Assembly: GCA_022824945.1 (NCBI GenBank)
Contig: JAJDYX010000055.1
Span: 1 to 64,000 of the forward strand
From: Candidatus Latescibacterota bacterium
Lineage (GTDB): Bacteria > Latescibacterota > UBA2968
Direction: 5' to 3'
Length of the DNA stretch: 64,000 nt
Of this stretch, positions 17,999-31,703 are shown in pieces; position 1 is the stretch's first letter, and every line of letters begins with the position of its first letter. The notes below the pieces were generated by a model that was not told the origin of the DNA, made no database searches, and saw only the letters and a program-made list of their open reading frames with translations. Both the position numbers and the translations under genes were made by a program.

Positions 17999-18943
17999 TC
18001 ATTTCTCACCGCGAATTTCCCGATTCAACCGTGCGGCTTTCACCAACTCGCGCTCCAACAATTTATAATAAGCCGCAGAATCCATTGTCGATTTTTTTTT
18101 CACCAGAGCCTGCACCTCGTCAATCGCCTTGCCATAAGCGGCAACAAGCGCGGGCGAAGCACCTTTGGGAACGCGAAAATTGAGCAAAAAACAACGGTCT
18201 GCCAACACCCCATCACCCTCGCCAATATCGGACAGACGCGTACCCAACCCATCGCCATTATCATCCAAAATCGCGTTCTCTGTCGCGATCAGCCCCTCAC
18301 TCAAAAACCAGGCATCTGTCAGTGAAGATGCTTGTGTGCAAATCTCCAGAACCGAAATGCGATCATCGCGATTCTGATCGGCACTCCCATCCTCCAGTGC
18401 CTGAACAAAAAAACGCATAAATTGCGTGGCATTGCGCTGATCTGTACTGCGCGTACTCGCGCATATAATGCGCCCATCTCGACTCAGAGCATTGACAAAA
18501 GGCGCACTCATCGACGCACCATTAACAACAATAATGCGCCGCGCAGATAACGTCTTCAAAAATCCGTCCAGATCGTCCGCTGTCAAATCCGCACCGGGAA
18601 TATTCAGCTTGCCAACCTGACGTCGATAACTCCCGTGCCCAATCAAAAAAATAAACACATCGTCGTCCGGCGTTACCCGCTCTGACAAACTGCGGAATGT
18701 ATTGCGAAGGCCCGCTATTGACGACCTGCCATCGGCATTCTCACCCGTCTCATTTACCAATTGCACATTTGCTGCGGGATGATCGCATTGATCAATCAGC
18801 ACCCGGCGCAAACGCTGCCCCCAATCGTCAAACCGCTTGGAATACTCATCCTCTCCACCGCTACCGCTGATAATCACATCAAAAACAGCGGCATTCGCCT
18901 GTGCCAACATCAACACCCAAATCGAGAACACCCATAATTTCAC
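17999..18943 (-). CDS. Secreted caspase-like (C13/C14 fold) protein lacking the catalytic cysteine
   Basis: A 314-residue protein with a signal peptide. A caspase-hemoglobinase-like core includes FIFLIGHGSY, where H103 sits at the catalytic His position. The next core strand, IIVV, should be followed by the D-A-C-x-S-G cysteine loop but reads N141-G-A-S-M-S. The Cys is therefore missing and it is probably a pseudoenzyme. Residues 189-200 form a textbook EF-hand loop (D189, N191, D193, R195, S197, E200), and DDNGDGLG follows later. GTG 18943 overlaps the preceding stop as GTGA, which fixes the start. It is the last gene of the eight-gene operon. Confidence 0.75.
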   Translation of the reverse strand: MKLWVFSIWVLMLAQANAAVFDVIISGSGGEDEYSKRFDDWGQRLRRVLIDQCDHPAANVQLVNETGENADGRSSIAGLRNTFRSLSERVTPDDDVFIFLIGHGSYRRQVGKLNIPGADLTADDLDGFLKTLSARRIIVVNGASMSAPFVNALSRDGRIICASTRSTDQRNATQFMRFFVQALEDGSADQNRDDRISVLEICTQASSLTDAWFLSEGLIATENAILDDNGDGLGTRLSDIGEGDGVLADRCFLLNFRVPKGASPALVAAYGKAIDEVQALVKKKSTMDSAAYYKLLERELVKAARLNREIRGEK

Positions 18944-21297
18944 GGCTCTCCTCGCTTCCGTCTCAAATACCATTCAAGGCCGAGCAACAACACAAGTACT
19001 ATATAAAAAGGCGGAAAATGCCACAACGGAAAACGATCCAATCGCGCATGGGCCTGATCGGTATATGGAATCTGCTCGGCCAATTCGTCCAGCGCGTCCA
19101 ACTCGATAAATTTGCCCCCCGTATGTGCAGACAGGCGTTTCAAAAAGTCGGGATTATAACGCGCAGATAAAAACTCGAGATTATCCGGACGCGCCAGCAC
19201 AGCTGCGTCCAGATGCCCAACATCTGCGCCATCGGTATCGCGTGCAGTAAGTTTTACGCGGTGCAACCCCGCTTCTGTAGCCTCAAAAATCGCAGAATAC
19301 GCACCCACCTCGGCAATAGATTCAGAAACCGGCAATCTAACTGTCCCACCATTCGGTAACTCGACCAACACATCAACGGACAGCCCTTCGCGGGATTCAA
19401 AAAGAGAATCGCGCACCACAAACTTCAAATCGCGCAGGTCCCCCACCACAACATCCTCGCCGCTATCAATCATCGTCACAGGCTCTGGCACCCGCATCGC
19501 CAGCAAACGCGCCAACTGCCGCCAAAAGCGTTCGTGGGCGGCATTGTCAACATTCTGCATCATCTGCCACTGCCACGTCTCGCCCGTTCCCAGTGCCGCA
19601 CTCAAACCCTCTCCATACCGCTGCCAGGCAAACAGCGGCTGTGCATCCACAGCTTCAGACTCGGCATCCACCGTCGCCATCACCGTTGCACCAGCGCGCA
19701 CAGATGCAAACGCATTGACCCCGTAAAGCGCGGATAAATTCGCCCACTGCTCGGCATTGACTTCGGCATCTTCGCTCAAAGACCAGACCCCTGACAATAA
19801 GCCTTCAATCGTCGGCTTAGCGCGAAAAGCCACATCGTCATAATCGCCTGCAGGACCCAACACAACGGGTAACATCGGTTCAATAGTCGAATGCGCCCAC
19901 CCGCCCTCTGAGTATGCACGCGGACCGCCCAGCATCAAAAAACTGCCTCCGCGTTTGGACACAAATTCCCGCGTCAAATTTAGTTGTGCAAGAGAAAAGA
20001 AATCGCGCTCAATATCCCCCCAGATCACCAGATGGTAGCGAAAAAGTTCTGAAACATCTGAGGGATACCCACTTGCCAACTCCGATTTTGACACGCCAAT
20101 GCGGATAAAAACCGCTTCGTCATAACGCGGCGCATTCAACGCCTGATCGTCAAAGCCCTCAAAAAGGGGATTCGCCATCGTCGCATCGCGCCCCCGAAAT
20201 ACAAACTTGCGCTCGGCACCAGAAATGCGAACCAGACTCGATAGAACAAGTTGCGGTGCCCCATCTAAGGCACGTCTCAAAAACTTGCCCTCCCAATTGG
20301 GCCGCCCGCTAAAATACAAAATGCGAAAAACGCGCTCGCGATTATCCACCATAATATCCCGCGCATTATTCGCAGCAATGCGATCTTTGATCGCAACACC
20401 CGTAGTATCTGCCAAACGCGTTCGCACGCGATGTGATAGCCAGCCCTCTCTTTGCGGGTCAAAATGGAGCCGGACATAATTCTCTTCCTGCGGTCCCACA
20501 ATAGAGAGCGGTGACGACGCCACCACCCGCGTGCCGTCCAGCACCTCAACCATTACATCTTCACCACCCAACCCCTCGGCCACCACCCGCGCTGTAATCG
20601 CTACCTCATCGGACCGCACGCGCGACACCGACACATCGGCCAATGCCAGATCGCGCCAGAGATCATCGCGACCTACCCCCACCGTAAAAACGGGCACATC
20701 GCCAGGCAAATCCGTTATCGGAACAGGCGCAGCACTTTGCTGCACCCCATCGCTAAACACCACCACAGCCGACACCGCAGCACCCGACATTTGCTTGAGC
20801 ACCCCGCGAACTGCACCGACAATATCTGATCGCCCCTGATCAAACACCAGGTCTTCAACCTCATTTATGCGCGCTGTTGTGCTGCCAAACCGAAACCGCG
20901 CCACCTGGTGAGACTGCGTCAACACGCGCTCAAAATCCGACGTCTGGTACACCTGCACAAATCGTTCTGCCCGCGTCTCTCCACCATTTTCAGGCACCGT
21001 CATACTGCGAGAATCATCAAACAAAACAGGCACAAAATGTGTACCAGGCTCCAATCTCTGCGCCACCAGCGCAGGCCCCAATAACAAAAACAGCACCAGC
21101 GTCAATGCCAGCGCACGCAACCCAATCAACACCTTTGAAAGCGCAGGGCGCCGCCTGTGCCAGAAAACCATACTCACACAAAAAACAACGCCGAGCAAGA
21201 CCAGCGCCACAGGCCATGCGACATCCAGTGCAAACCGCACATCGCGATACGCAACGGTGCGCTCCCCTGCCAATAAGTGTAATAACCAGTCAGTCAC
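18940..21297 (-). CDS. Membrane VWA / amidotransferase-like protein
   Basis: A 785-residue membrane protein. Two N-terminal membrane segments (about residues 26-46 and 57-79) precede a von Willebrand A-like domain whose metal site is D94-D-S-R-S98, with VVVFSDGV later. A middle beta-rich part is followed by a class-I-amidotransferase-like region (RILYFSGRPNWEGKFLRRAL ... FLMLGGPRAYSEGGW). A further membrane helix and an RRKR tail end the protein. Large BatA-neighbour proteins with this layout are known from many FCB and planctomycete genomes, without defined function. Start and stop both overlap neighbours by 4 bp. Confidence 0.8.
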   Translation of the reverse strand: MTDWLLHLLAGERTVAYRDVRFALDVAWPVALVLLGVVFCVSMVFWHRRRPALSKVLIGLRALALTLVLFLLLGPALVAQRLEPGTHFVPVLFDDSRSMTVPENGGETRAERFVQVYQTSDFERVLTQSHQVARFRFGSTTARINEVEDLVFDQGRSDIVGAVRGVLKQMSGAAVSAVVVFSDGVQQSAAPVPITDLPGDVPVFTVGVGRDDLWRDLALADVSVSRVRSDEVAITARVVAEGLGGEDVMVEVLDGTRVVASSPLSIVGPQEENYVRLHFDPQREGWLSHRVRTRLADTTGVAIKDRIAANNARDIMVDNRERVFRILYFSGRPNWEGKFLRRALDGAPQLVLSSLVRISGAERKFVFRGRDATMANPLFEGFDDQALNAPRYDEAVFIRIGVSKSELASGYPSDVSELFRYHLVIWGDIERDFFSLAQLNLTREFVSKRGGSFLMLGGPRAYSEGGWAHSTIEPMLPVVLGPAGDYDDVAFRAKPTIEGLLSGVWSLSEDAEVNAEQWANLSALYGVNAFASVRAGATVMATVDAESEAVDAQPLFAWQRYGEGLSAALGTGETWQWQMMQNVDNAAHERFWRQLARLLAMRVPEPVTMIDSGEDVVVGDLRDLKFVVRDSLFESREGLSVDVLVELPNGGTVRLPVSESIAEVGAYSAIFEATEAGLHRVKLTARDTDGADVGHLDAAVLARPDNLEFLSARYNPDFLKRLSAHTGGKFIELDALDELAEQIPYTDQAHARLDRFPLWHFPPFYIVLVLLLGLEWYLRRKRGEP

Positions 21298-24200
21298 TTC
21301 TCACGTTCCGTCAATGCCTTAAAATACTCGGCAACACGGGTGCGGTATTGCTCGGGAATTTCATCTGACTTGCCAGCGGAAAGGCCATAGTCTCCTTTTC
21401 GCTCGCGAATCAGATCCGACAATTCTTCGGCAGACAGCGTCAAAGGCTTAATCGCGCGATCAAAAATCAAATCGTATTGCGGCACCGCCCCCTCGCGATA
21501 ATAATCGCGCCCAATACCCGCCAGATCTTCGCGGATACCCGTCAAACGCTGTCGCACACCCAAATCAGCCGGCAAAAGCGACTCGGCCTCGCGCAAGCGA
21601 TTCATCCAATCGCGAAAACCGCTTTCGGCAAAACGCCGCAACTCGTCGGGGTTTCGCGGACCCCATCCAAATCGCCCGTCGCCGCCATCCCTTTCTCCTC
21701 CCATCACACTCTCCAAACGCTCCTGCGCCCGCTCCAGCGCTTCCAGATCATCGCGCACCAGAAGTTGCGCGACACCATCGAGTTTTTCAGCCGCCTGATC
21801 CAACTTCTCCGCCACAGCGCGCTCGTGTGTTTCCGACGCACGCCACGCCCCCAATCGCACAAAACGCTCGCCCGCTTGCATATCTTCAAAAATGCCTTCG
21901 CGACTCGTCTCGCGCAGCCAGTCATTGAGCTTTTGCGACATCAAACCCTGGCTTTCGGCGGCCTTCTCTGCCAATGCACTCGCCTCCTCCATCATATCCC
22001 GGAACTCATCGGCCGTGCGTTGCTTCCCCTCGAGCATCTCTCTCAACCCGCGCTCCGCATCAGACAGCGTTCCGCGCTGCGCCTGCTGCTCCTGTGCCTG
22101 TGCGACCAAACCCTGCTGTTGGGCGCGCAAACTGTCCATCTTGTCTTGTAACATCTTCATGCGTTCAGCAGCTGCCCCGCGCGATAAATTGCCCAATTGC
22201 TCCTGTACATCGCGCAATGCGTCTAAAGCGCGATTGCCCGCAGCCCGTGCCCGTTGCAACTGATCGTTCTCCAGATTTTGCGCGCTGCGACTCATTTGCC
22301 GCCGCGCACCTTCCAATTGCTCCCGCGCCTGCCGCGCCTGTTGTGGGTCCATATCTCCAGACGCAATCTCACCATTGACCGCATCGAGCGCATCCATTGT
22401 CTGACGCTGCGCCTCGCGCAACTGCTCCAGGCGACGTTTGGCCTCCTCGCGCGCTTCGCCATCCAGCTTTTCCACCTCTGAAATCAACTGCGCCACATCT
22501 TCGTTAATCGCCGCCTGCCGCCTCGTCAATTCCTCAATTTTATTTTGTGCCTCTGCCGTCTCGGCGAGTTGCTGTTGCAGGGTAGATGCCTCTTCCCGAA
22601 AATCTCGTCGCTGCGCCAGTTCCAGACCATCTAACTCGCGTTGTTGTGCCTGGCCCCCACCGCCACCGCGTTGCCGCTGCCTGCCTTGCACAACCTCCGC
22701 CTCTCTCGGTCTCCTCTGCAACAGGTATCGATACGCGCGCTGAGCATGCCCCCATGCCCTTGCCAATGCCGCATCCGGATCGTCAAAAGACGCCTCGCTC
22801 AGTGCCCCGATGACACCCGCAAACTCAGCTTCCAAATCCGCTGCCGGATTCCTTACAGAACCCTGAACATTTTCTTGCGCTTCAATAATAGCGTGCTTCT
22901 GCTCATCGTATTCTTCCCAATCCATTCCCGACGCGCCTTTGCGCAAATTCCAGATCGCAATAATCACCTGCTTCTGGCCCTCTGCACCACCCCGCTGTCC
23001 CCTGCCCTGTCCTTGCTGGCCGCCCTCGTTACTCACAGCCTGACGATAGAGCCGTTCAAAAGGCCGAATTTCCAAAAAATAGGGATCGCCCAGATTCTCC
23101 ACCTCAGACCGTCCCGGCTTGCCATCTTCTGCCCAAATCGTCCAGGTGATAAAATCGCCCGCCGCGAGACCCAAATCTTCCAATGCCATCGGATACTCAC
23201 CCTCTGCGCTTTCTATCCGCGCTGTCTCCGTCACAAGAGAAATCCGCACGGGATCGCGCCCTGCCACCTCGTATTGCAAACCGTAATCCATAAGCCCGTA
23301 ATCGTCTTTTATCGAAAACCCAAAAGCCACTTCCTCTATTGCCGTAGCCTCGTCATCCCCGCGTGGAAAACGAACCTGTATGCGCGGCGGCTGATCCACT
23401 TTGGCCGTAATTTTATACGCGCGTGCATACTCATTTTTCTCGCCATCGGCATCCCGCAAACCCACCTCATAAGCACCGTTCTCTACAATAGACAGCTTAC
23501 CTTCCCAAACGGAATCGTCCGATTTTTCCAACGCCATTTCTTCTCCGCCATCCAATACCAGCGCTGCCTTCTCCAACACTTTATTCACCGTTACCGACAC
23601 CACCACCTCCGTGCCTTCGGGCGCCGTGATATCGCCCCCATAAGGCACATCCCGGTCTTCCATTTCCAAATAGTCGGGATAGCGATATAGAAGTCCAATT
23701 GACACGACTTCGGGCGGTGTCCACACCGAAAGCCGATACACTTTTGAACGATAAGACCCAACCTGCACCTGATATTCTGTATCGGCGTACAAATCGCGCA
23801 ATTGATGAGCAAAAACATCGCCAGTCTCTCCAGGCTCTAAAGGCGCAGTTTGCCAGTCCCCGCCCGATGCTCGCCACTGAATCGCCTTACTCGCCCCTGA
23901 GAGATCTGTCGTCACCCACACCATCTGATGCGCCCCGCGCCGCACCCGTGCATCACCCGGTTCAACCGTATAGGGCAATGGCAAAGTCGGTACAGAAAAC
24001 AACCGCCCTGCAATATCGCCCAGATCAACCTGCCACAGTGCCAGGAGCAACACAACAGTCCCCAACCCCCACACCCCAACAACCGCGCGGCGCACGCGCT
24101 TCAAAACGCGCAGATCAATCACAGGAGGAGCCTGTATCGCCGACAACTCGCGCACCTGCTGAAACACCTGCTCGGTCATCCACTCGGAAACCGGCGTTGC

Positions 24201-24530
24201 CCCGTGCAGCGACACACTGCTCACAATCAGATCCTCAAGCTCGGGATGATGTGCATCGAGAAACAACGCGATCTGCTCTCGCGTCACCACAGCCCGCTGT
24301 GGTACATACAACCACCTGTAACCCGCGCCAAAGACCAGAAAGAGAAATGTCAGAACCGGCACAATCACAGGCACGCGATCGACAAAAGCCACCACAGCGC
24401 ACACCCCAATCAGCAAACCTAAAAACACGGCACCAAATATCAACCGCCCCTGCAAACGCCGCCGCCTTTCAAACTGCGCGGCCACTTCGCGGATCGCGTG
24501 TTCCAATTTAAGTGGTAGCAATGGTATCAT
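21294..24530 (-). CDS. DUF4175-type giant membrane/coiled-coil protein
   Basis: A 1078-residue protein. It begins with two membrane helices (about residues 30-50 and 54-75), and a third lies near residue 155. A beta-sandwich region follows (strands such as YRLSVWTPPEVVSIGLLY). Next comes a very long Gln/Glu/Arg-rich helical part with a Gly/Gln low-complexity spacer (QRQRGGGGGQAQQ). Many heptad-like stretches such as EEAKRRLEQLREAQRQ suggest extended coiled coils. The size and layout match DUF4175 proteins. Role unknown; scaffolding across the periplasm is a guess. Its ATGA overlaps tie it to genes on both sides. Confidence 0.75.
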   Translation of the reverse strand: MIPLLPLKLEHAIREVAAQFERRRRLQGRLIFGAVFLGLLIGVCAVVAFVDRVPVIVPVLTFLFLVFGAGYRWLYVPQRAVVTREQIALFLDAHHPELEDLIVSSVSLHGATPVSEWMTEQVFQQVRELSAIQAPPVIDLRVLKRVRRAVVGVWGLGTVVLLLALWQVDLGDIAGRLFSVPTLPLPYTVEPGDARVRRGAHQMVWVTTDLSGASKAIQWRASGGDWQTAPLEPGETGDVFAHQLRDLYADTEYQVQVGSYRSKVYRLSVWTPPEVVSIGLLYRYPDYLEMEDRDVPYGGDITAPEGTEVVVSVTVNKVLEKAALVLDGGEEMALEKSDDSVWEGKLSIVENGAYEVGLRDADGEKNEYARAYKITAKVDQPPRIQVRFPRGDDEATAIEEVAFGFSIKDDYGLMDYGLQYEVAGRDPVRISLVTETARIESAEGEYPMALEDLGLAAGDFITWTIWAEDGKPGRSEVENLGDPYFLEIRPFERLYRQAVSNEGGQQGQGRGQRGGAEGQKQVIIAIWNLRKGASGMDWEEYDEQKHAIIEAQENVQGSVRNPAADLEAEFAGVIGALSEASFDDPDAALARAWGHAQRAYRYLLQRRPREAEVVQGRQRQRGGGGGQAQQRELDGLELAQRRDFREEASTLQQQLAETAEAQNKIEELTRRQAAINEDVAQLISEVEKLDGEAREEAKRRLEQLREAQRQTMDALDAVNGEIASGDMDPQQARQAREQLEGARRQMSRSAQNLENDQLQRARAAGNRALDALRDVQEQLGNLSRGAAAERMKMLQDKMDSLRAQQQGLVAQAQEQQAQRGTLSDAERGLREMLEGKQRTADEFRDMMEEASALAEKAAESQGLMSQKLNDWLRETSREGIFEDMQAGERFVRLGAWRASETHERAVAEKLDQAAEKLDGVAQLLVRDDLEALERAQERLESVMGGERDGGDGRFGWGPRNPDELRRFAESGFRDWMNRLREAESLLPADLGVRQRLTGIREDLAGIGRDYYREGAVPQYDLIFDRAIKPLTLSAEELSDLIRERKGDYGLSAGKSDEIPEQYRTRVAEYFKALTEREK

Positions 24531-26440
24531 GTCCGTACCTCCCGCACACTCAAATACGCGGCATAAAAATGTTCGAGCAAAAGCAAGGCGAGCAAAAATC
24601 CAAGCACCCAGCGACCGTATTCATACACAATCGAAAGATCTGTCGATGATTTGCCATCTTTCTGAAATAACACGGGCGTATCGCACAGCCGAATCTCAAA
24701 TTCCGCGGGCGTTATCCGCGCCAAATCGCTCTCTCGATCCGCAACATTGACCGATGCGATCTGCGTCCCCCACTGATATACGCCTGGCGCATGGAATATG
24801 CGGGCATCGCCAACTATAGAATCCGATCCCTCTGGTCCCATAACCCGTTCCACTGTATCAGAAGTACTTATGGCATCACCCACCAGGTAATCTGTCTCGA
24901 TCTCTCGATCACCTGATAAATAGCGCAACGTCTCGTGTAACAAAGGCACAAACCGCGGCGTCCGCGCCAGATTTGACCGATCAAACCCCATTCCACCACC
25001 CCAGACCACGATGCGCCCCTCTCCTATTTTACCTTCGACAATAGCGGGCATAAGATCGTCGTATTTTGCCAGCACCGCGGCTGAACTGTCGGCGTTAATA
25101 ACGTGGTAATTCTCATATCGCACAGATGAAAAATCGTTAAACCGCGCGCCCCTGAAAGGACGAAAAATCGGGTGTTCCAAATCGACCCACGCCAGCGCGG
25201 CATAACCCGCATCCTCCACCCCTGAAACCCGGATATTCGCGCGCGCGAGCAAGGCATTCACAGACTGAATATCGGCATCTCTGCGAAGCGGCAAAAACAG
25301 CGCACCGCCATTCTCAACATAGTCTGCAAACTCACTTACAGAAACCACATCTTCGGCAATCACCACCGACCCCATAAGTTCCCCAGACCAGATCAAACGC
25401 CAGTCCGCGCCTTCGGGCACAGCAGCTTTGAGCATAAACTGCGTGACCTCCGAAGTGTTCAACACCGCGATGGGATGTTGCGGTTTGGCAATCCACGCAA
25501 AAAAACGCCGATCATCTCGCTGTAATCCATCGCCACCGGCAAGTGAGACATATCCGTTTATCCCATCCTCCAGAGGTACGGAGAAAGCCACCTGTGTGGC
25601 ATTGCCCTGCAACACTGTCACATCGCGCGTTTCTACCACTTCGCCACCGGCCATTAGTTGCACAGCAAGCGCGTCCTGTCCAGACCAATTTCTCACCCGA
25701 GCGCGAACCCGCAATACATCGTCTTTTCCAGCCCGCACAGCGAGCGCGTCAACCGACGCATTAGACACCTGAGAGGTCCCCACATCCACCGCTTGAAGCT
25801 CAATCGCACCCGGCAGTCGCCATCCCATATCGGACACCGGCATACCACTCGCCTGAAAATCGCTAATCACATGAACCACGCGCCGCACCTGAGCGGTATC
25901 GACCGCAAAAACATGTTCAACCGCCTGAAGTGCCAAAGCATAATCGGTATGTGCCCACGTCACATCGGCGATCTCAATAGCGCGTTGCACATCTGCCACA
26001 TCGCCAGGTGGCACATCCACCACAGCCTGCTGTGCAAATCGCACAAACCCGACTCGGTCTCCTGGCGCCACAGTCTCCAGAACGGATTTCGCCTCCATTT
26101 TCGCACGCTCCCACGCTCCGTCATATCCCATACTCAACGAAACATCCATCGCAATCACATGATCAGTCGTTCCCGAAGACACCGCTTCAGCATCCAACAT
26201 CATCTCTTGAAAAGGCCGCGCAAACACAAGTGCCAGGGCAACCAACGCAGCCATTCGCAACAACATCAACACAACGTGTTGAACGCGCCTGCGCTCAATC
26301 ACCTCGCGCTTAACATCGGGCACAAACATCAAACTGCTAAACCGCACAGTCTCGCGCTCCGGGCGACGAATGCGATGCACAAAATAGGGAATGCCAATCA
26401 GCGCAACCCCAAATGCAAAAAGCGGAGCCAGCAACCCCAT
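24527..26440 (-). CDS. BatA-like aerotolerance-regulator VWA protein
   Basis: A 637-residue membrane protein. The N-terminal BatA-type helices (GLLAPLFAFGVALIGIPYFVHRIRRP, then a second helix near residues 57-75) lead to a von Willebrand A domain with intact metal site D99-V-S-L-S103 and HVISDF. A C-terminal amidotransferase-like part and a last membrane helix (WVLGFLLALLLLEHFYAAYL) follow. BatA proteins work with MoxR ATPases. A GTG directly precedes ATG 26440, and AGGAGG at a proper distance supports the ATG. It starts at the upstream DUF58 stop. Confidence 0.85.
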   Translation of the reverse strand: MGLLAPLFAFGVALIGIPYFVHRIRRPERETVRFSSLMFVPDVKREVIERRRVQHVVLMLLRMAALVALALVFARPFQEMMLDAEAVSSGTTDHVIAMDVSLSMGYDGAWERAKMEAKSVLETVAPGDRVGFVRFAQQAVVDVPPGDVADVQRAIEIADVTWAHTDYALALQAVEHVFAVDTAQVRRVVHVISDFQASGMPVSDMGWRLPGAIELQAVDVGTSQVSNASVDALAVRAGKDDVLRVRARVRNWSGQDALAVQLMAGGEVVETRDVTVLQGNATQVAFSVPLEDGINGYVSLAGGDGLQRDDRRFFAWIAKPQHPIAVLNTSEVTQFMLKAAVPEGADWRLIWSGELMGSVVIAEDVVSVSEFADYVENGGALFLPLRRDADIQSVNALLARANIRVSGVEDAGYAALAWVDLEHPIFRPFRGARFNDFSSVRYENYHVINADSSAAVLAKYDDLMPAIVEGKIGEGRIVVWGGGMGFDRSNLARTPRFVPLLHETLRYLSGDREIETDYLVGDAISTSDTVERVMGPEGSDSIVGDARIFHAPGVYQWGTQIASVNVADRESDLARITPAEFEIRLCDTPVLFQKDGKSSTDLSIVYEYGRWVLGFLLALLLLEHFYAAYLSVREVRT

Positions 26441-27369
26441 CACGCGCCTCCTGACCGCCTGCTCGGCGCGATCAGCCCATCGTTGCGCCGATGTAAAAAC
26501 CGATGCAACGCCATATCCAGAGGCTCAGAACACACAAACTCCTCGATATCGATTTCCGCTGACAAACACGCTTCTCTTATCGCGCCAAAATGTCGCCTGC
26601 GATTTTCCAAATAAGCCTCGCGCACCTCTTCTGGCACGGCAAATTGCTCGCGACTGTCCTCGGCATCCACCAGCGTCACCGACCGATCAAAAGGAAACGT
26701 CTGCTCAGCCGGATCGCTCACCTGCAACACCAGCACATCGTGACGCTGCGCTCGCAGAGAACGCAAATGCACAATCATCTCATCTGCCGGATGCAACAAA
26801 TCGCCGATCAACACCACCATCCCTCGCGCAGGCAACACATCGCCCATCACCCGCAACGTCCCCGCCGTATCCGTCTCTTCACCCGCGGGCCTCAAATTGT
26901 CGATCTCCATCAAAATGCGATGGCGCTGCCCATCCCGACGACGCGCTGGCACATGCGCAATCAACTCCCGATGATAAGCGGCAAAACCCACGGCATCTCC
27001 CTGACCGGAAGCCAGCATCACCAGACACGCCGCCAGCATCTGTGCATACCGAAACTTGCTCACTTCTCCCGAACCATAATCCATAGACGCACTGCAATCC
27101 AGCAAAATAGTAGAACGCAAATTGCGCTCATCCTGAAACTGCTTCACGTGCAACCGATCACTCCGCCCGTACAGCCGCCAATCCACAAAGCGCAAATCAT
27201 CACCCCACGCATAAGGGCGATATTGGGCAAACTCAACCGACGCCCCATGGTGAATACTGCGATGCGCCCCACCCTGCAACCCGGAAATCACAGTACGCGC
27301 CAGAAGTTCCAGATCGGCAATACGCGCCAACTCAGCCGGGTCGAGATATGTGTAAATAGAATTTTGCAT
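26440..27369 (-). CDS. DUF58 (VWA-like) protein
   Basis: A 309-residue soluble protein. The DUF58 hallmark is EFAQYRPYAWGDDLRFVDWR (residues 46-65), followed by a von Willebrand-like metal site D91-C-S-A-S95 and later VVLIGDLLHP. DUF58 proteins are the usual partners of MoxR-type AAA+ ATPases, thought to be adaptors or substrates for remodelling. It lies 10 bp downstream of the MoxR gene. The start at 27369 has only a weak ribosome site, which fits translational coupling with the upstream gene. Confidence 0.88.
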   Translation of the reverse strand: MQNSIYTYLDPAELARIADLELLARTVISGLQGGAHRSIHHGASVEFAQYRPYAWGDDLRFVDWRLYGRSDRLHVKQFQDERNLRSTILLDCSASMDYGSGEVSKFRYAQMLAACLVMLASGQGDAVGFAAYHRELIAHVPARRRDGQRHRILMEIDNLRPAGEETDTAGTLRVMGDVLPARGMVVLIGDLLHPADEMIVHLRSLRAQRHDVLVLQVSDPAEQTFPFDRSVTLVDAEDSREQFAVPEEVREAYLENRRRHFGAIREACLSAEIDIEEFVCSEPLDMALHRFLHRRNDGLIAPSRRSGGA

Positions 27370-27379
27370 AGCGATTAGC

Positions 27380-28408
27380 CTATACCAAATCCGCTTCTGG
27401 CGGCTGAACGGTCTCTAACAACCGATTGATAACATCCTCGGCATTAACGCGATCAGCCTCAGCTCTAAAATTGGTCAAAATGCGGTGGCGCAACACATTG
27501 GGTGCAACAGCTCGTACATCACCAAAAGAAACGTGGTATCGCCCCTTGAGCAACGCCCGCGCCTTTGCCCCCAGCAACAACCCCTGAACGCCGCGTGTAC
27601 CCGCGCCCCAACTCACCCATGAATTCACAAAATCCGGTGCCATATCCCCCGGGCGGCTCGCCTGCACCAGTTGCACCGCATAACGCGCCACAGGCTCGGC
27701 AACCGGAACCATCCGCACCAGCCTGGAAAAATCGAGCATATCTGCACCCGAAAACACAGACTCGACCTCTTCGGCCTCAATCGACGTCGTGCGCGTCGCC
27801 ACATCCAACTCCTCATCCTCCGCCAAATAATCGATCCAGATATTCATCATAAAGCGATCCAACTGCGCCTCGGGCAGTGGATAGGTCCCCTCCAATTCAA
27901 TGGGATTCTGCGTTGCCAGAACGTAAAACGGTTGCTCCAGCGCGTGCAAATTACCCCCTATTGTCACCTGCTTCTCCTCCATCGCCTCCAGCAGTGCAGC
28001 CTGTGTCTTGGGCGGCGTGCGATTAATCTCATCAGCCAGCAAAATATGCGTAAAAATAGGACCCGGAATAAACCGCAACTCGCGATGCCCGCCCACGCGA
28101 TCCTCGTCGATAATCTCTGTACCCGTTATATCCGAAGGCATTAGATCCGGCGTAAACTGAACGCGCTTAAAATCCAAATCCAAAATTTTCGCAATCGTAC
28201 GCACCAGCAGCGTCTTCGCCAAACCCGGCGCCCCCGTCAACAAACAATGACCACCGCTAAACAACACAATCAGCAACGACTCAATAACCTCATCCTGCCC
28301 GACGATCACTTTGCGAACCTGCTCCATCATCCGCGCGCGACCATCGCGCAACTTGTCTATCGCCTCAGCCTCAAATGGCATTTCCTGTACTTGAATGGTT
28401 TCTCCCAA
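27380..28408 (-). CDS. MoxR-family AAA+ ATPase
   Basis: A 342-residue AAA+ ATPase. Walker A is G59-A-P-G-L-A-K65-T66, Walker B is ILLADEINR (D126, E127), and the MoxR motif NPIELEGTYPLPEAQLDRF is intact. MoxR ATPases act as chaperone-like remodelers with VWA proteins. The start used here is TTG at 28408 with GAGGTGAT just upstream. An in-frame ATG at 28381 has a poorer ribosome site but cannot be excluded. It is followed by DUF58, BatA, DUF4175 and VWA genes, the usual order in FCB-type genomes. Confidence 0.9.
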   Translation of the reverse strand: MGETIQVQEMPFEAEAIDKLRDGRARMMEQVRKVIVGQDEVIESLLIVLFSGGHCLLTGAPGLAKTLLVRTIAKILDLDFKRVQFTPDLMPSDITGTEIIDEDRVGGHRELRFIPGPIFTHILLADEINRTPPKTQAALLEAMEEKQVTIGGNLHALEQPFYVLATQNPIELEGTYPLPEAQLDRFMMNIWIDYLAEDEELDVATRTTSIEAEEVESVFSGADMLDFSRLVRMVPVAEPVARYAVQLVQASRPGDMAPDFVNSWVSWGAGTRGVQGLLLGAKARALLKGRYHVSFGDVRAVAPNVLRHRILTNFRAEADRVNAEDVINRLLETVQPPEADLV

Positions 28409-28425
28409 AAATCACCTCTATTATT

Positions 28426-29280
28426 TTAATGCGTCATCGCATACACCACGATATTAATACCCATCGGATACGCCTTGGGCGCGGAAAAATTGCGAAAATA
28501 CTCGTAATTCTCGCCCTCGCGCTCCCAGCCATCACCCAAATCCGTATTGTGCATCACCACCACCATCAACCGCCCGTCCCGATCAAAAATGCCTTTGCAG
28601 TGCGCCTCAGAACCGTATTCGTCATAACGCCCTGCCCAGCCCTCATAAGTAATCCCCGTCGATTGCCAGTCCCAGAAACTGCCCAGACCCGGCACCTGCG
28701 GCACCTCCTTAATATCAAACACAATGTGAAACAACTCGTGATCCAGCGGAATATCCACCAGGGGAAATTCATCGGGCGGCAACACCTGAGAAATCTCGTA
28801 CACCCAATTTCGCCATGCATCATCCCCCCAGAAATCATCCACCAGCAAAAAACCACCGCGCAACAAATACTCGCGCAATCCCTCCTGCTCGGACACACTC
28901 AAAGCCATACGCCCCACTTCGAGCATATAAACAAAAGGATACTTAAATACCTCGGGATCATCCAGGCGCACAATCACATGCTTAAACTGCCCGTCTTCTG
29001 TGCGATTCACATTGAGCGTTGTAATTTGAGACAAACGCAGAGAAAAATTCTCATCCGACTCGGGATAATCCACCGCCCAACTGCCCCTTCGCCGCCGATA
29101 TCCCCAATCATCATCGCCCGTATAATTCGAATACTCGATACGACAAAACGTAAACGTATTGCCCGGAAAAATATCGCGTTCCATCCGCTCGAAAGGGCCT
29201 CGCCGTCTGCGCCCGAACTGTGCATCGACATCCCACTCGGGCATCAACAACACCAACAAACACGCCAACAAAATTCGCAT
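28426..29280 (-). CDS. Secreted DUF4159 protein
   Basis: A 284-residue exported protein. The signal peptide MRILLACLLVLLMPEWDVDA is followed by an Arg/Gly segment, then the DUF4159 region (TFCRIEYSNYTGDDDWGY, NLNVNRTEDGQF-like strand, LREYLLRGGFLLVDDFWGDDAW, PLDHELFHIVFDIKEVPQ). It ends with YPMGINIVVYAMTH. DUF4159 domains resemble amidotransferase-like folds. The start ATG 29280 overlaps the preceding stop (TGATG) with GGAGGTG upstream. It is a constant companion of MoxR/BatA operons; molecular role unknown. Confidence 0.85.
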   Translation of the reverse strand: MRILLACLLVLLMPEWDVDAQFGRRRRGPFERMERDIFPGNTFTFCRIEYSNYTGDDDWGYRRRRGSWAVDYPESDENFSLRLSQITTLNVNRTEDGQFKHVIVRLDDPEVFKYPFVYMLEVGRMALSVSEQEGLREYLLRGGFLLVDDFWGDDAWRNWVYEISQVLPPDEFPLVDIPLDHELFHIVFDIKEVPQVPGLGSFWDWQSTGITYEGWAGRYDEYGSEAHCKGIFDRDGRLMVVVMHNTDLGDGWEREGENYEYFRNFSAPKAYPMGINIVVYAMTH

Positions 29281-31703
29281 CACTGCACCTCCACCAATTC
29301 CAACAACAACTGTTGTGCATCCCAAAAATGCGGCATTGTTTCCAACAGCGCGAGCACCTCGGCTTTTGCAGCCACAACCTCACCCTTTTTTGCCAGAGCC
29401 TCCGCCAGATTGAGCCGATGCGCTGCTCGACCCGGTACATCCAGATAAATCAACCGACGCCAATCCGCAATAGCCGCATCCCAATCTGCCAGCATCTCGT
29501 GTACCTCTGCTCTTCGCGCCAGTACCTCAACCTGAAACGGACGCACCGCCAATGCCCGCTCCAGCACCGTAAGTGCAGCCGTCCAGTCTTTATCCTCCAT
29601 ATAAAATCCACTCAACGCCAGACAGGCTTCAGGCGCTGTCGCATCCCATTCAACGAGCTTTTTCAAGGCTTTGCGGTGCCACTTTGGGTCCCCACGCACC
29701 ATCCCGGCATCCACCCATAGCCTCAAAGGCGCATCTTCCGCAACATAGTCTGGATACAGAGCATACGCTTTCAGAAAAAACCGCTCTGCATCCGCCCAGT
29801 TCTTTGCCTCAACTGCCTCTTTCCCCGCATTTAATTTCTGGCGAAACTCCGAATTTTTGGACAGCGCCCTGAGGGGCGCGCATCGATTCCCCAGATATTC
29901 CATAAACCGCTCATCCATGAGACGGGCAGAAACACCACTGGCCGAAATCAACGCCTCAACAGCCTCCATACCATCGCCAATGCGGTCGAGTGCCGTCACC
30001 AATGCATCGTGGCCGTAGTGATTCACGTAAAATGCCACAAACTCGCCCGATACAAAATACCCATACATCAGATGCATCGGCGTTTCTGGATCCGTAAAAA
30101 ACCGCCCGAGATCGCCTACAGCCGGAAACCCCTCGCCATCTACAATATGCTTAAATTCAGGATTCAGCCGCTGCCCCCACGACACATCCTTTTGCGTCTC
30201 TTCATAGACCGAAATCCCCTCCGACAACCAGCGCGGCATGCGATTATGGGTCTTTTGCAGCGTAATCACATGCACAAACTCGTGCCACAACACCTGTTGC
30301 CAGTTCATCGTGCCAGGTGGTCGCGCCCGAGGAGAATCCATCGTGACCAACCGTCCAAAACAAATGCCCAAATGCCCCGCATTGCCCGGCAACCCAACCG
30401 ACCGCACCATAAACACATCGTGATCGTCAAACACCTGCACCACCACGGGCGTGTGCAATTCAATATTGTATTTTCTCTGATAGTACAAAGCCGCTTCATT
30501 GAGCAGTCCCAACAGTCCATCGGACATCACCTCGGCTTCTTGCCTGGGCAATTGCAACTTGAAAATACCGCGCGATATCGTCACAAAACCATCAATCGCA
30601 TCGGCAGCCTCGAGCAAATTATATGCCCGCACGCTATATGGATCAGCCGCAAAAACACGCTCCAACTCGCTTCGCGCCTCGGCATCTTTGCCCAACCGCA
30701 ACAAATCATACGCCAACAGCAAACGCGCCTCAACATCTTTTGCATCAATTTCCAACGCACGCGCTTGAAAAGCACGCCCTTCTTCAAACCGGTATTGCCG
30801 AGACGCAATGCGCCCGGGAATGCGAAAAGCACCTGAAAAATACCCATTAAAAGCCAATGCCCGTTCCTGCATTTTTGCCATCGTTGCTGAATCGTCCAAT
30901 AAAAAAAACGCCGCTGCCTTTAACCCCAGCGCTTTCAGGTGGTTTGGATTAACAGACAGGATAGAATCCAGCATCGCAAGCGCGGCATGTGCTTCATTGC
31001 GACCCAACAATTGCTCGGCTTGCAACCGCCGGACCTCCAGATGATTCGGATTGAGGGCGAAAAGTTGCGCCATCACTTCCAAAACCCGATCATCGCCCGC
31101 GTGATAATAACACCACATCAACCCCGCCAAAGCCTCCTGATTTTCGGGATCCAACGCAAGCGCTGCACCGTATTTCTCCGCCGCTACATCAAAAGCGCGT
31201 TTGTCCAGAGATAGCTTCCCCGCCGCAATAAACACAGACACGCTATTGGGAAATGCCTGAGCCATCAAATTGTAAAATCGCAACAGCGATTTTGGATCTT
31301 CGCCCTTCAACTCGCGCAGCCGCGCAGCCGCGAGAAAATCATCGACATCAGGGCGATATTCCGACAACAATTGCACCTGGCGCTCGGCCTGCATCAATGC
31401 CGTGGCATAATCGCCCATCCGACCGCGCATGCGATACAACTCGGCCAATCGCACAGCCACATCGGGCCCACTTCCAACCCCTTCCAGTTGCTCAATCGCT
31501 TCGTCAACGCGACCCGTCAACACCAGCAACTCGGCATAATCCCGCCGCGTTGACCACGGGTGATAAGACGCGCGCTCGAGCACTTTCACCGCCTCGGCAT
31601 AATCGCCCTGCGCCCACAACGCGCGATAATCCGTCTCCTGCGCAGAAACGCTTTCCGCGCTAAAGAAGATTGCGCAGACTAAATATATGATTCGAGAAAG
31701 CAT
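29280..31703 (-). CDS. Secreted TPR protein with HExxH (peptidase MA-like) domain
   Basis: An 807-residue exported protein opening the eight-gene operon. A signal peptide (LSRIIYLVCAIFFSAESVSA-QE) precedes many tetratricopeptide-type helical pairs. Around residue 473 lies H-E-F-V-H, followed by the WLSEGISVYEE segment, which supplies the third (Glu) ligand of a gluzincin. This is the pattern of peptidase-MA-like domains. A second TPR block fills the C-terminus. ATG 31703 is chosen because it directly begins the signal peptide. Upstream ribosome sites are weak for both it and the ATG at 31739. Confidence 0.8.
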   Translation of the reverse strand: MLSRIIYLVCAIFFSAESVSAQETDYRALWAQGDYAEAVKVLERASYHPWSTRRDYAELLVLTGRVDEAIEQLEGVGSGPDVAVRLAELYRMRGRMGDYATALMQAERQVQLLSEYRPDVDDFLAAARLRELKGEDPKSLLRFYNLMAQAFPNSVSVFIAAGKLSLDKRAFDVAAEKYGAALALDPENQEALAGLMWCYYHAGDDRVLEVMAQLFALNPNHLEVRRLQAEQLLGRNEAHAALAMLDSILSVNPNHLKALGLKAAAFFLLDDSATMAKMQERALAFNGYFSGAFRIPGRIASRQYRFEEGRAFQARALEIDAKDVEARLLLAYDLLRLGKDAEARSELERVFAADPYSVRAYNLLEAADAIDGFVTISRGIFKLQLPRQEAEVMSDGLLGLLNEAALYYQRKYNIELHTPVVVQVFDDHDVFMVRSVGLPGNAGHLGICFGRLVTMDSPRARPPGTMNWQQVLWHEFVHVITLQKTHNRMPRWLSEGISVYEETQKDVSWGQRLNPEFKHIVDGEGFPAVGDLGRFFTDPETPMHLMYGYFVSGEFVAFYVNHYGHDALVTALDRIGDGMEAVEALISASGVSARLMDERFMEYLGNRCAPLRALSKNSEFRQKLNAGKEAVEAKNWADAERFFLKAYALYPDYVAEDAPLRLWVDAGMVRGDPKWHRKALKKLVEWDATAPEACLALSGFYMEDKDWTAALTVLERALAVRPFQVEVLARRAEVHEMLADWDAAIADWRRLIYLDVPGRAAHRLNLAEALAKKGEVVAAKAEVLALLETMPHFWDAQQLLLELVEVQ

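Follow-up and report, generated by a model that had tools for sequence, protein, structure and literature searches.

Eight consecutive genes on the minus strand of a Candidatus Latescibacterota contig (GenBank assembly GCA_022824945.1, JAJDYX010000055.1) form a block, numbered here P1 to P8 from its first gene to its last, whose gene order recurs in several distant phyla. The DNA analysed, referred to as the window, is the whole stretch of 64,000 nucleotides (positions 1 to 64,000 of the contig), and the block occupies 17999-31703. Sequence comparisons indicate that the block is conserved and that its eight parts evolve together. The MoxR-DUF58-VWA core is already known; the eight-gene form, with a peptidase gene and a legumain-like gene, appears to be a new variation on it. 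Since the same gene order is found in several distant phyla, the block looks like one cell-envelope machine. The reading that we favour, at a little short of an even chance, is that the eight genes encode one inner-membrane-spanning envelope machine, inherited as a block, which gates proteolysis by P1 and contains P8 as a non-cleaving subunit.

The eight open reading frames (ORFs) run head to tail from P1 to P8, as read from the ORF list and Pfam searches. Together with three sites inside them they are:

29280..31703, minus strand: P1, TPR and Peptidase MA protein with a signal-like N-terminus (Pfam Peptidase_MA_2, E 6e-10, and TPR; motifs HEFVH and WLSEGISVYEE)
30270..30284, minus strand: codons of the HEFVH zinc site of P1 (residues 486-490, counted from the 31739 start)
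28426..29280, minus strand: P2, DUF4159 protein with a signal-like N-terminus (Pfam DUF4159, E 3e-42; TGATG junction)
27380..28408, minus strand: P3, MoxR AAA+ ATPase, probably cytosolic (Pfam AAA_3, E 5e-63; Walker A and B)
26440..27369, minus strand: P4, DUF58 protein with a VWA-type metal site and no transmembrane (TM) segment (Pfam DUF58, E 2e-50, and VWA_2; DxSxS)
24527..26443, minus strand: P5, BatA-like membrane protein with VWA (Pfam BatA, PF07584, E 7e-16, and VWA_2, E 3e-12; DxSxS)
21294..24530, minus strand: P6, DUF4175 protein, predicted membrane-anchored (Pfam DUF4175, E 6e-10; two TM segments)
18940..21297, minus strand: P7, membrane protein with VWA, beta-sandwich, GATase1-like domain, beta-sandwich and C-terminal TM segment (Pfam GATase1_like; AlphaFold model)
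17999..18943, minus strand: P8, legumain (C13)-fold protein with a signal-like N-terminus and no catalytic Cys (Pfam Peptidase_C13, E 3e-5; model)
18635..18637, minus strand: codon of P8 His113 (GHG), at the catalytic-His position (His in 49/49 P8 sequences counted)
18512..18514, minus strand: codon of P8 Ser154, at the position of the legumain nucleophile Cys (profile alignment to legumain)

The genes overlap by 1 bp at P1/P2 (TGATG) and by 4 bp at each of P4/P5, P5/P6, P6/P7 and P7/P8 (GTGA at the last), and are separated by 17 bp at P2/P3 and 10 bp at P3/P4. These junctions were computed with starts at 29280 for P2 and 18943 for P8, the mechanical ORF caller preferring longer starts (P1 31739, P2 29325, P8 18973). 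The original prediction had described an eight-gene minus-strand block with these domains at this place, with five tight junctions and gaps of 17 and 10 bp. Both descriptions are borne out, by the ORFs and Pfam matches (for the P7 VWA domain, by the structure model) and by the recomputed starts and junctions. The MoxR gene lies next to the DUF58 gene, 10 bp apart, an arrangement that would place the block among the MoxR-DUF58 envelope operons. A promoter and terminator scan returned 10 promoter-like sites, with 11.6 expected, and 29 terminator-like sites, mostly within genes, with 20.1 expected (standard deviation 4.5).

Named genomes were scanned with a DUF4159 alignment, and gene order was read in the best 80 of 560 confirmed loci; phylum names are the labels of public genome records, mostly metagenome-assembled genomes (MAGs). 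A MoxR or DUF58 gene lies downstream of DUF4159 in 49 of these best 80 loci. P1 is directly upstream in 40 of the 46 core loci that could be tested, the contigs of the other 3 of 49 being too short. P8 was found (E ≤ 0.001) in 45 of 46 genomes searched, and in 43 of 44 once the two that already showed it (L123 and L160) are discounted. These 46 genomes were hand-picked from the 80 loci: 44 stand for core loci, out of the 49, and the other two are L085 and L100; L093, L094, L106, L140 and L156 were left out of the P8 search.

The stretches around the P8 matches gave a gene-order set of 46 loci from 45 genomes, many of them on contigs too short to show all eight genes. The full P1-P8 order is present in 21 of the 46 (14 Planctomycetota, 4 Verrucomicrobiota and one each of Acidobacteriota, Hydrogenedentota and Omnitrophota). 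P7 and P8 are consecutive in 41 of 46, where consecutive refers to profile matches with at most 795 bases between match ends, other ORFs being ignored. The iterative profiles used for this annotation had been derived from these very loci. The five loci without a P7-P8 pair comprise two contig ends with P8 alone (L212, L221), one P8 that stands alone (L235) and two in which P8 comes after other genes behind a MoxR set (L196, L198). The block is also present in named strains, such as Roseiconus nitratireducens JC645, Tautonia sociabilis GM2012 and Verrucomicrobiae bacterium DG1235.

The peptidase gene in front and the caspase-fold gene behind, which the original prediction had proposed as additions to the core, thus prove to be true parts of the unit by position (P1 in 40/46, P8 in 45/46, P7-P8 in 41/46) and by distances that track those of the core. 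The comparison of neighbourhoods across phyla that it had called for was run, and most homologous operons of this type were not found to lack the protease and the caspase-like gene. Outside the phylum, the joined P3-P7 proteins are 28-44% identical to those of the window. In the tree of the joined proteins an Acidobacteriota locus groups with Omnitrophota and one Verrucomicrobiota locus falls inside Planctomycetota, and these cross-phylum groupings suggest transfer as a block, subject to the labelling of the MAGs.

For each of the 28 gene pairs the distances are correlated (r 0.64-0.98), and in no pair did any of 999 permutations reach the observed value. P1 (r 0.80-0.97 with the other genes) and P8 (r 0.76-0.94) both fit as well as the core. 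Within the window's genus, represented by 11 genomes in the search with the window's own counted in, all eight genes are under purifying selection: the ratio of non-synonymous to synonymous substitution rates (dN/dS) is 0.04-0.23 in 47 of 48 gene pairs, and the sole exception, P8 against L045 (0.35), rests on a dS of 0.03.

A less biased sample was drawn evenly from Planctomycetota (149 genomes, the centre G070 included). Strong matches to P1 (E < 1e-280; next best 1.6e-118) occur in 8 of the 149, those to DUF4159 (P2; E < 1e-65) in the same 8, and those to P8 (E < 1e-69) in the same 8 plus G243, with cut-offs placed at gaps in the score lists after these had been viewed. Co-occurrence of the three is highly significant (Fisher p 2e-12, relatedness ignored). 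G133 and G245 hold P1, P2 and P7-P8 at three separate places, all present (P3-P6 were not searched for there). Among 145 Verrucomicrobiota, strong P1 and P8 matches fall in the same 2 genomes, one of them the search centre, and weak P8-like matches are seen in 3 others. Rare as it is, the unit is mostly found complete. Four weaker P8-like matches among the Planctomycetota lie behind P7-like genes (L249, L250, L252, L254), so the P7-P8 link extends beyond the eight-gene form.

P1 carries HExxH in all 21 complete operons and a WLSEG.S.YEE-type pattern, under a strict regular expression, in 17 of them. Residues H486, E487, H490 and E507 are invariant in the 8 sequences aligned, and E507 is presumably the third zinc ligand, as is general for gluzincins. 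HExxH with a downstream Glu is the signature of a gluzincin-type Peptidase MA, the group to which P1 would belong. Most of the P1 sequence is TPR. P1 looks like an intact secreted metal protease and is the likely protease among the exported partners.

Walker A and B motifs are present in P3 of 21/21 operons, and DxSxS in P4 of 20/21 and P5 of 21/21. The VWA domain of P7 was not called by Pfam and is visible in the AlphaFold model (predicted local distance difference test, pLDDT, 80), which shows two TM helices, VWA, a beta-sandwich, a GATase1-like domain, a further beta-sandwich and a TM helix; D94 and S96 of P7 are invariant in 19/19 aligned sequences. In this model the GATase1-like part matches GATase-like proteins at Z 23.4 over 205 residues and the VWA part scores Z about 15-18, with the Bacteroides fragilis aerotolerance protein 4jdu at Z 17.7 over 172 residues; these fold searches, like those for P8, were limited to listed folds. 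A search of solved structures gave no match for P6 or P4 and one chance-level match for P7; for DUF4159 there is a relative of solved structure, 4i66, itself uncharacterised. Judged by hydropathy and charge, the domains of P5 and P7 lie outside the inner membrane, and P1, P2 and P8 each start with a signal-like segment. By hydropathy P4 has no TM segment, and the sole hydrophobic window of P3 runs into the ATP-site loop. P3 and P4, which lack export signals, are probably cytosolic, and P5, P6 and P7 are predicted to be membrane-anchored.

P8 had been put forward as a caspase-like pseudoenzyme. The loss of the catalytic Cys stood; the fold is better described as that of legumain (C13), and the position of the Cys is mostly taken by a conserved Ser. 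The model of P8, built from three sequences, is of moderate confidence (mean pLDDT 60, predicted template modelling score 0.66) and matches legumain at Z 16.8 over 182 residues (2.6 Å), with metacaspases, caspases and a glycosylphosphatidylinositol transamidase subunit scoring below. The window protein narrowly passes the Pfam C13 profile (24.2 bits, cut-off 22.8); among 8 P8 orthologues, half (4) score against C13 without reaching the cut-off and the other 4 give no match. In a profile search His113 and Ser154 fall on the legumain catalytic His and Cys, respectively, at weak E values (0.01-0.03). In a relative with an intact PCHSGGF site (L251), the Cys aligns with Ser154, counting back from a shared GR motif.

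A total of 65 P8 and P8-like sequences were aligned, of which 16 were set aside: 7 genus members beside one representative, the repeats L123 and L160, and 7 divergent sequences (L236-L242). Across the remaining 49, His113 and Ser156 are invariant, Gly follows the His in 48, and position 154 is occupied by Ser in 45, the others having Ala (3) or Pro (1). Cys occurs at position 154 in none of the 65, and the catalytic His is kept in 64. Residue 154 of the divergent seven is Pro in 4, Ala in 2 and Ser in 1; one of them, L236, lies behind P7 and has neither the His nor the Ser, and its inclusion changes the counts to 49/50 for His and 45/50 for Ser. Three further P7-linked copies have Ser (L248, L255) or Ala (L258) at this position. 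A shifted catalytic Cys was considered and rejected, Cys being present at 152 in 8/21 and at 155 in 1/21 complete operons and conserved at neither. Replacement of the Cys of a legumain fold by a mostly conserved Ser, across phyla, is unusual in itself.

Proteins of about 880 residues with a degenerate legumain-like domain lie directly before MoxR-DUF58-BatA at three loci (L243:5708-8332, L245:7416-10064, L261:6927-9557), so that the association of a legumain fold with MoxR is wider than the operon.

Several known systems share parts with the window operon. The cmd operon of Rhizobium leguminosarum, a member of another phylum, likewise combines MoxR, DUF58 and VWA; RL3501 and RL3502 hold DUF4159 and GATase-like domains, and to our knowledge the operon has four genes, without a TPR metallopeptidase or a legumain-like gene. 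In the part of PMC5700661 available to us, cmdABCD (RL3499-RL3502; Vanderlinde et al. 2011, cited there) is a conserved MoxR/DUF58/VWA region whose mutants have cell-shape and envelope defects; the original prediction had called MoxR-DUF58-BatA a known core, and this source agrees with it and ties the core to envelope integrity in Rhizobium. The Bat (aerotolerance) clusters of Bacteroides, Leptospira and Borrelia share MoxR, DUF58 and a BatA-type VWA membrane protein with the window operon, and P5 indeed has a BatA-type N-terminal membrane domain and a VWA domain and is encoded beside MoxR and DUF58. Bat clusters pair their VWA proteins with BatD, TPR and SH3 proteins (same portion of PMC5700661), whereas the window operon has instead DUF4159, DUF4175, GATase-like, metallopeptidase and legumain-like proteins; the BatD family gave no match among the eight in Pfam or NCBIfam at E up to 0.1.

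The MoxR-vWA ternary conflict systems (Kaur et al. 2020, PMC7159879, accessible portion) share the MoxR-VWA couple and have often-inactive peptidase-fold partners; unlike them, the window operon has exported partners and a fixed gene set. P8 has the fold, the catalytic His and the Gly of legumain (family C13, clan CD) but, unlike legumain, a mostly conserved Ser in place of the nucleophile Cys, and its gene follows a MoxR operon. P6 shares the DUF4175 label with AdvA of Acinetobacter baumannii, described as a cell-division protein in a paper whose available part mentions neither MoxR nor DUF4159 (PMC7481262). The literature searched, from which subscription papers were mostly absent, yielded no mention of DUF4159, named DUF4175 in the AdvA paper alone and gave no description of the eight-gene form. 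MoxR-DUF58-VWA operons are widespread. Eight fixed parts, including an apparently intact peptidase and a peptidase fold without its Cys, in named strains make it testable what these ATPases act on.

In the envelope machine that we favour, hexamers of P3 with the VWA adaptor P4 would spend ATP on remodelling or loading P5 and P7, the membrane VWA proteins. The VWA, beta-sandwich and GATase-like domains of P5 and P7 would face the periplasm, with P6 bridging the two proteins. This ATP-driven remodelling may gate the metallopeptidase P1 outside the inner membrane. P8, the part most tightly linked to P7, could bind peptides and so recognise substrates without cleaving them, and P2 could be another binding subunit. 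Envelope proteins would in this way undergo controlled processing or quality control. We infer, in short, a mechanism in which ATP-driven remodelling of membrane VWA proteins controls periplasmic proteolysis. The protease-related output that the original prediction had suggested is putative; P1 looks intact, and P8 lacks the catalytic Cys. Published work lends the reading indirect support: mutants of the related Rhizobium operon have envelope and morphology defects (PMC5700661), and a chaperone-like part in maturing protein complexes is described for MoxR ATPases (PMC3893208).

Several observations weigh against this interpretation. P1 is missing directly upstream in 6 of the 46 testable named loci, and the strict DxSxS of P7 is found in only 15/21 operons. 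The topology comes from hydropathy alone, a simple computation rather than a dedicated predictor. Among the Planctomycetota, G243 has P6-P7-P8 on a 5,965-base contig, which then ends, and no strong P1 or P2; 7 more genomes have P8-like matches of 1e-26 to 1e-54 without strong P1 or P2; and some P8 match at E ≤ 0.001 is found in 27/149. The complete unit is rare (8/149 and 2/145, centre genomes included) and therefore is no housekeeping machine in those phyla. Leptospira biflexa from which every bat gene had been deleted showed no growth, morphology or oxidative phenotype (PMC3557215, in the part seen), so an envelope function is not general for BatA-MoxR clusters. In the literature searched, no substrate, interaction or phenotype of the eight-gene form was found.

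Alternatively, the proteins could form an envelope-assembly chaperone like other MoxR-DUF58-BatA clusters, with no proteolytic output, in which the TPR superhelix would be the working part of P1 and P8 would serve as a structural scaffold. The dominance of TPR in P1, the absence of the catalytic Cys from P8 in 65/65 aligned sequences and the role of MoxR ATPases elsewhere, described in the accessible part of PMC3893208 as chaperone-like in the maturation of protein complexes, all fit this proposal. A pure scaffold, however, would not need HExxH in 21/21 operons and a downstream Glu, and we regard the chaperone as possible but doubtful. Quite the opposite role for P8, an active legumain-fold hydrolase or transacylase that uses Ser for Cys and gives the operon two proteolytic enzymes, is in our judgement unlikely. 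Ser154 does align with the legumain nucleophile and with the intact Cys of the L251 relative, and Ser (45/49), His (49/49) and the Gly after it (48/49) are strongly kept. Yet the Ser is missing from 4 of the 49 sequences (Ala in 3, Pro in one) and also from L258 (Ala) and L236 (which has lost the His as well), the legumain profile match is weak (E 0.01-0.03) and the P8 model has a pLDDT of 60. Cys-to-Ser mutants of clan CD peptidases serve as dead enzymes, moreover, and we know of no clan CD serine peptidase. The boldest version would make the block an ATP-gated, membrane-spanning proteolysis machine, new to envelope biology, with P8 as a working enzyme whose nucleophile is serine. P8 would then be the first serine hydrolase or transacylase in nature to have the caspase/legumain fold, and MoxR would control it together with its partner, a zinc metallopeptidase; we allow this version a slightly slimmer chance again.

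A biological-conflict or cell-suicide system akin to the MoxR-vWA ternary systems, its caspase-like effector being inactive, would account for the patchy distribution; inactive caspase domains occur in VMAP systems (PMC7159879, in the part available), and P3 matches bpMoxR above its cut-off (42.6 bits, compared with 211 for AAA_3). Against it stand the parts themselves, which are fixed and under purifying selection rather than swapped, the putative effector, which looks exported, and the Pfam results, in which none of the eight proteins was assigned to a VMAP, iSTAND, FtsH or beta-propeller family. padloc gave one weak IetA match at the ATP-binding site of P3 and nothing else; a defence system was rejected, and we hold the conflict explanation to be very improbable. 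A case for mere local coincidence, the extended unit being no more than a chance set of adjacent genes, could be made from the flanking genes, which are also on the minus strand, and from one genus genome (G038) whose operon is split between P6 and P7. This too was rejected, with next to no likelihood left to it, on the same order in five further phyla, the co-occurrence without linkage in G133 and G245, and the matched distances. In other phyla, complete operons are flanked by ORFs of different size and strand.

In the genus, the block is complete on a single contig in 6 of the 11 genomes (the window and L041-L045) and runs across contig ends in 4 (L046/L047, L048 with small contigs, L049/L050, L051/L052). 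Breaks or in-frame fusions affect some of these copies. In G038, the eleventh, the parts lie in L023 and L024, and a similar short ORF at both breaks (L023:7904-8350 and L024:9836-10429; also L023:5608-5940 and L024:6445-6801) suggests that the split arose by repeat-mediated rearrangement. P7 and P8 of the window (17999-21297) are nearly identical to those of L045:486-3781 (genome G031), with dS 0.03, whereas P1-P6 have diverged (dS 0.18-0.36); we conclude that the rear part of the operon has recombined recently within the genus. Two genus copies have extra DNA between MoxR and DUF58 (L041:7242-10444, 3.2 kb; L042:6176-6937, 0.76 kb). G026 apparently has at least two DUF4159 genes in tandem where P1 meets MoxR, between the two (L026:1-1159, L030:2070-3603).

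Across the phylum, P8 matches at E < 1e-80 are found in 13 of 64 genomes, all in family f1. DUF4159/MoxR sets in general lack P8: in this phylum DUF4159 is present in 63/64 genomes and P8, at E ≤ 0.001, in 17/64. DUF4175 is present in 59/64 and VWA/GATase in 60/64, and these counts, like that of DUF4159, include window-type copies and DUF4159 genes in other contexts. In the stretches inspected, DUF4159 and DUF4175 stand side by side outside the operon at L021, L031, L040, L056, L073, L075 and L079, with MoxR-DUF58 near the pair in L031, L040 and L056 and a TPR-like gene following in some. The VWA/GATase gene lies behind a tsaD-like gene and near an FtsK-like gene at L022, L074, L076, L077 and L080. 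The labels tsaD, FtsK, LolA and TPR in these stretches come from reading translated starts, not from a family search. P8 was not seen in the inspected stretches that hold other DUF4159-DUF4175 or VWA/GATase genes.

The P2 protein of the window is 28-35% identical to five local-type DUF4159 proteins of the phylum and 49-55% identical to those of Hydrogenedentota, Omnitrophota and Sumerlaeota. Being closer to other phyla than to local relatives, it shows that the window set did not arise by recent copying of the local one, and an origin by duplication of the phylum's own set was rejected. The idea of a unit special to the window's lineage was also rejected, since the block, though restricted within its own phylum, recurs in others.

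Elsewhere in the window's own genome, additional DUF4159, DUF4175 and VWA/GATase genes lie at two places (L021:9079-14933, L022:7877-10018), one of which is between tsaD-like and FtsK-like genes. Some phylum genomes, G007 and G008 among them, have 10-15 copies of DUF4159, with four in a row at L068, and in other genomes DUF4159 lies beside genes that look like ExbB/ExbD on reading their translations (for example L061 and L071).

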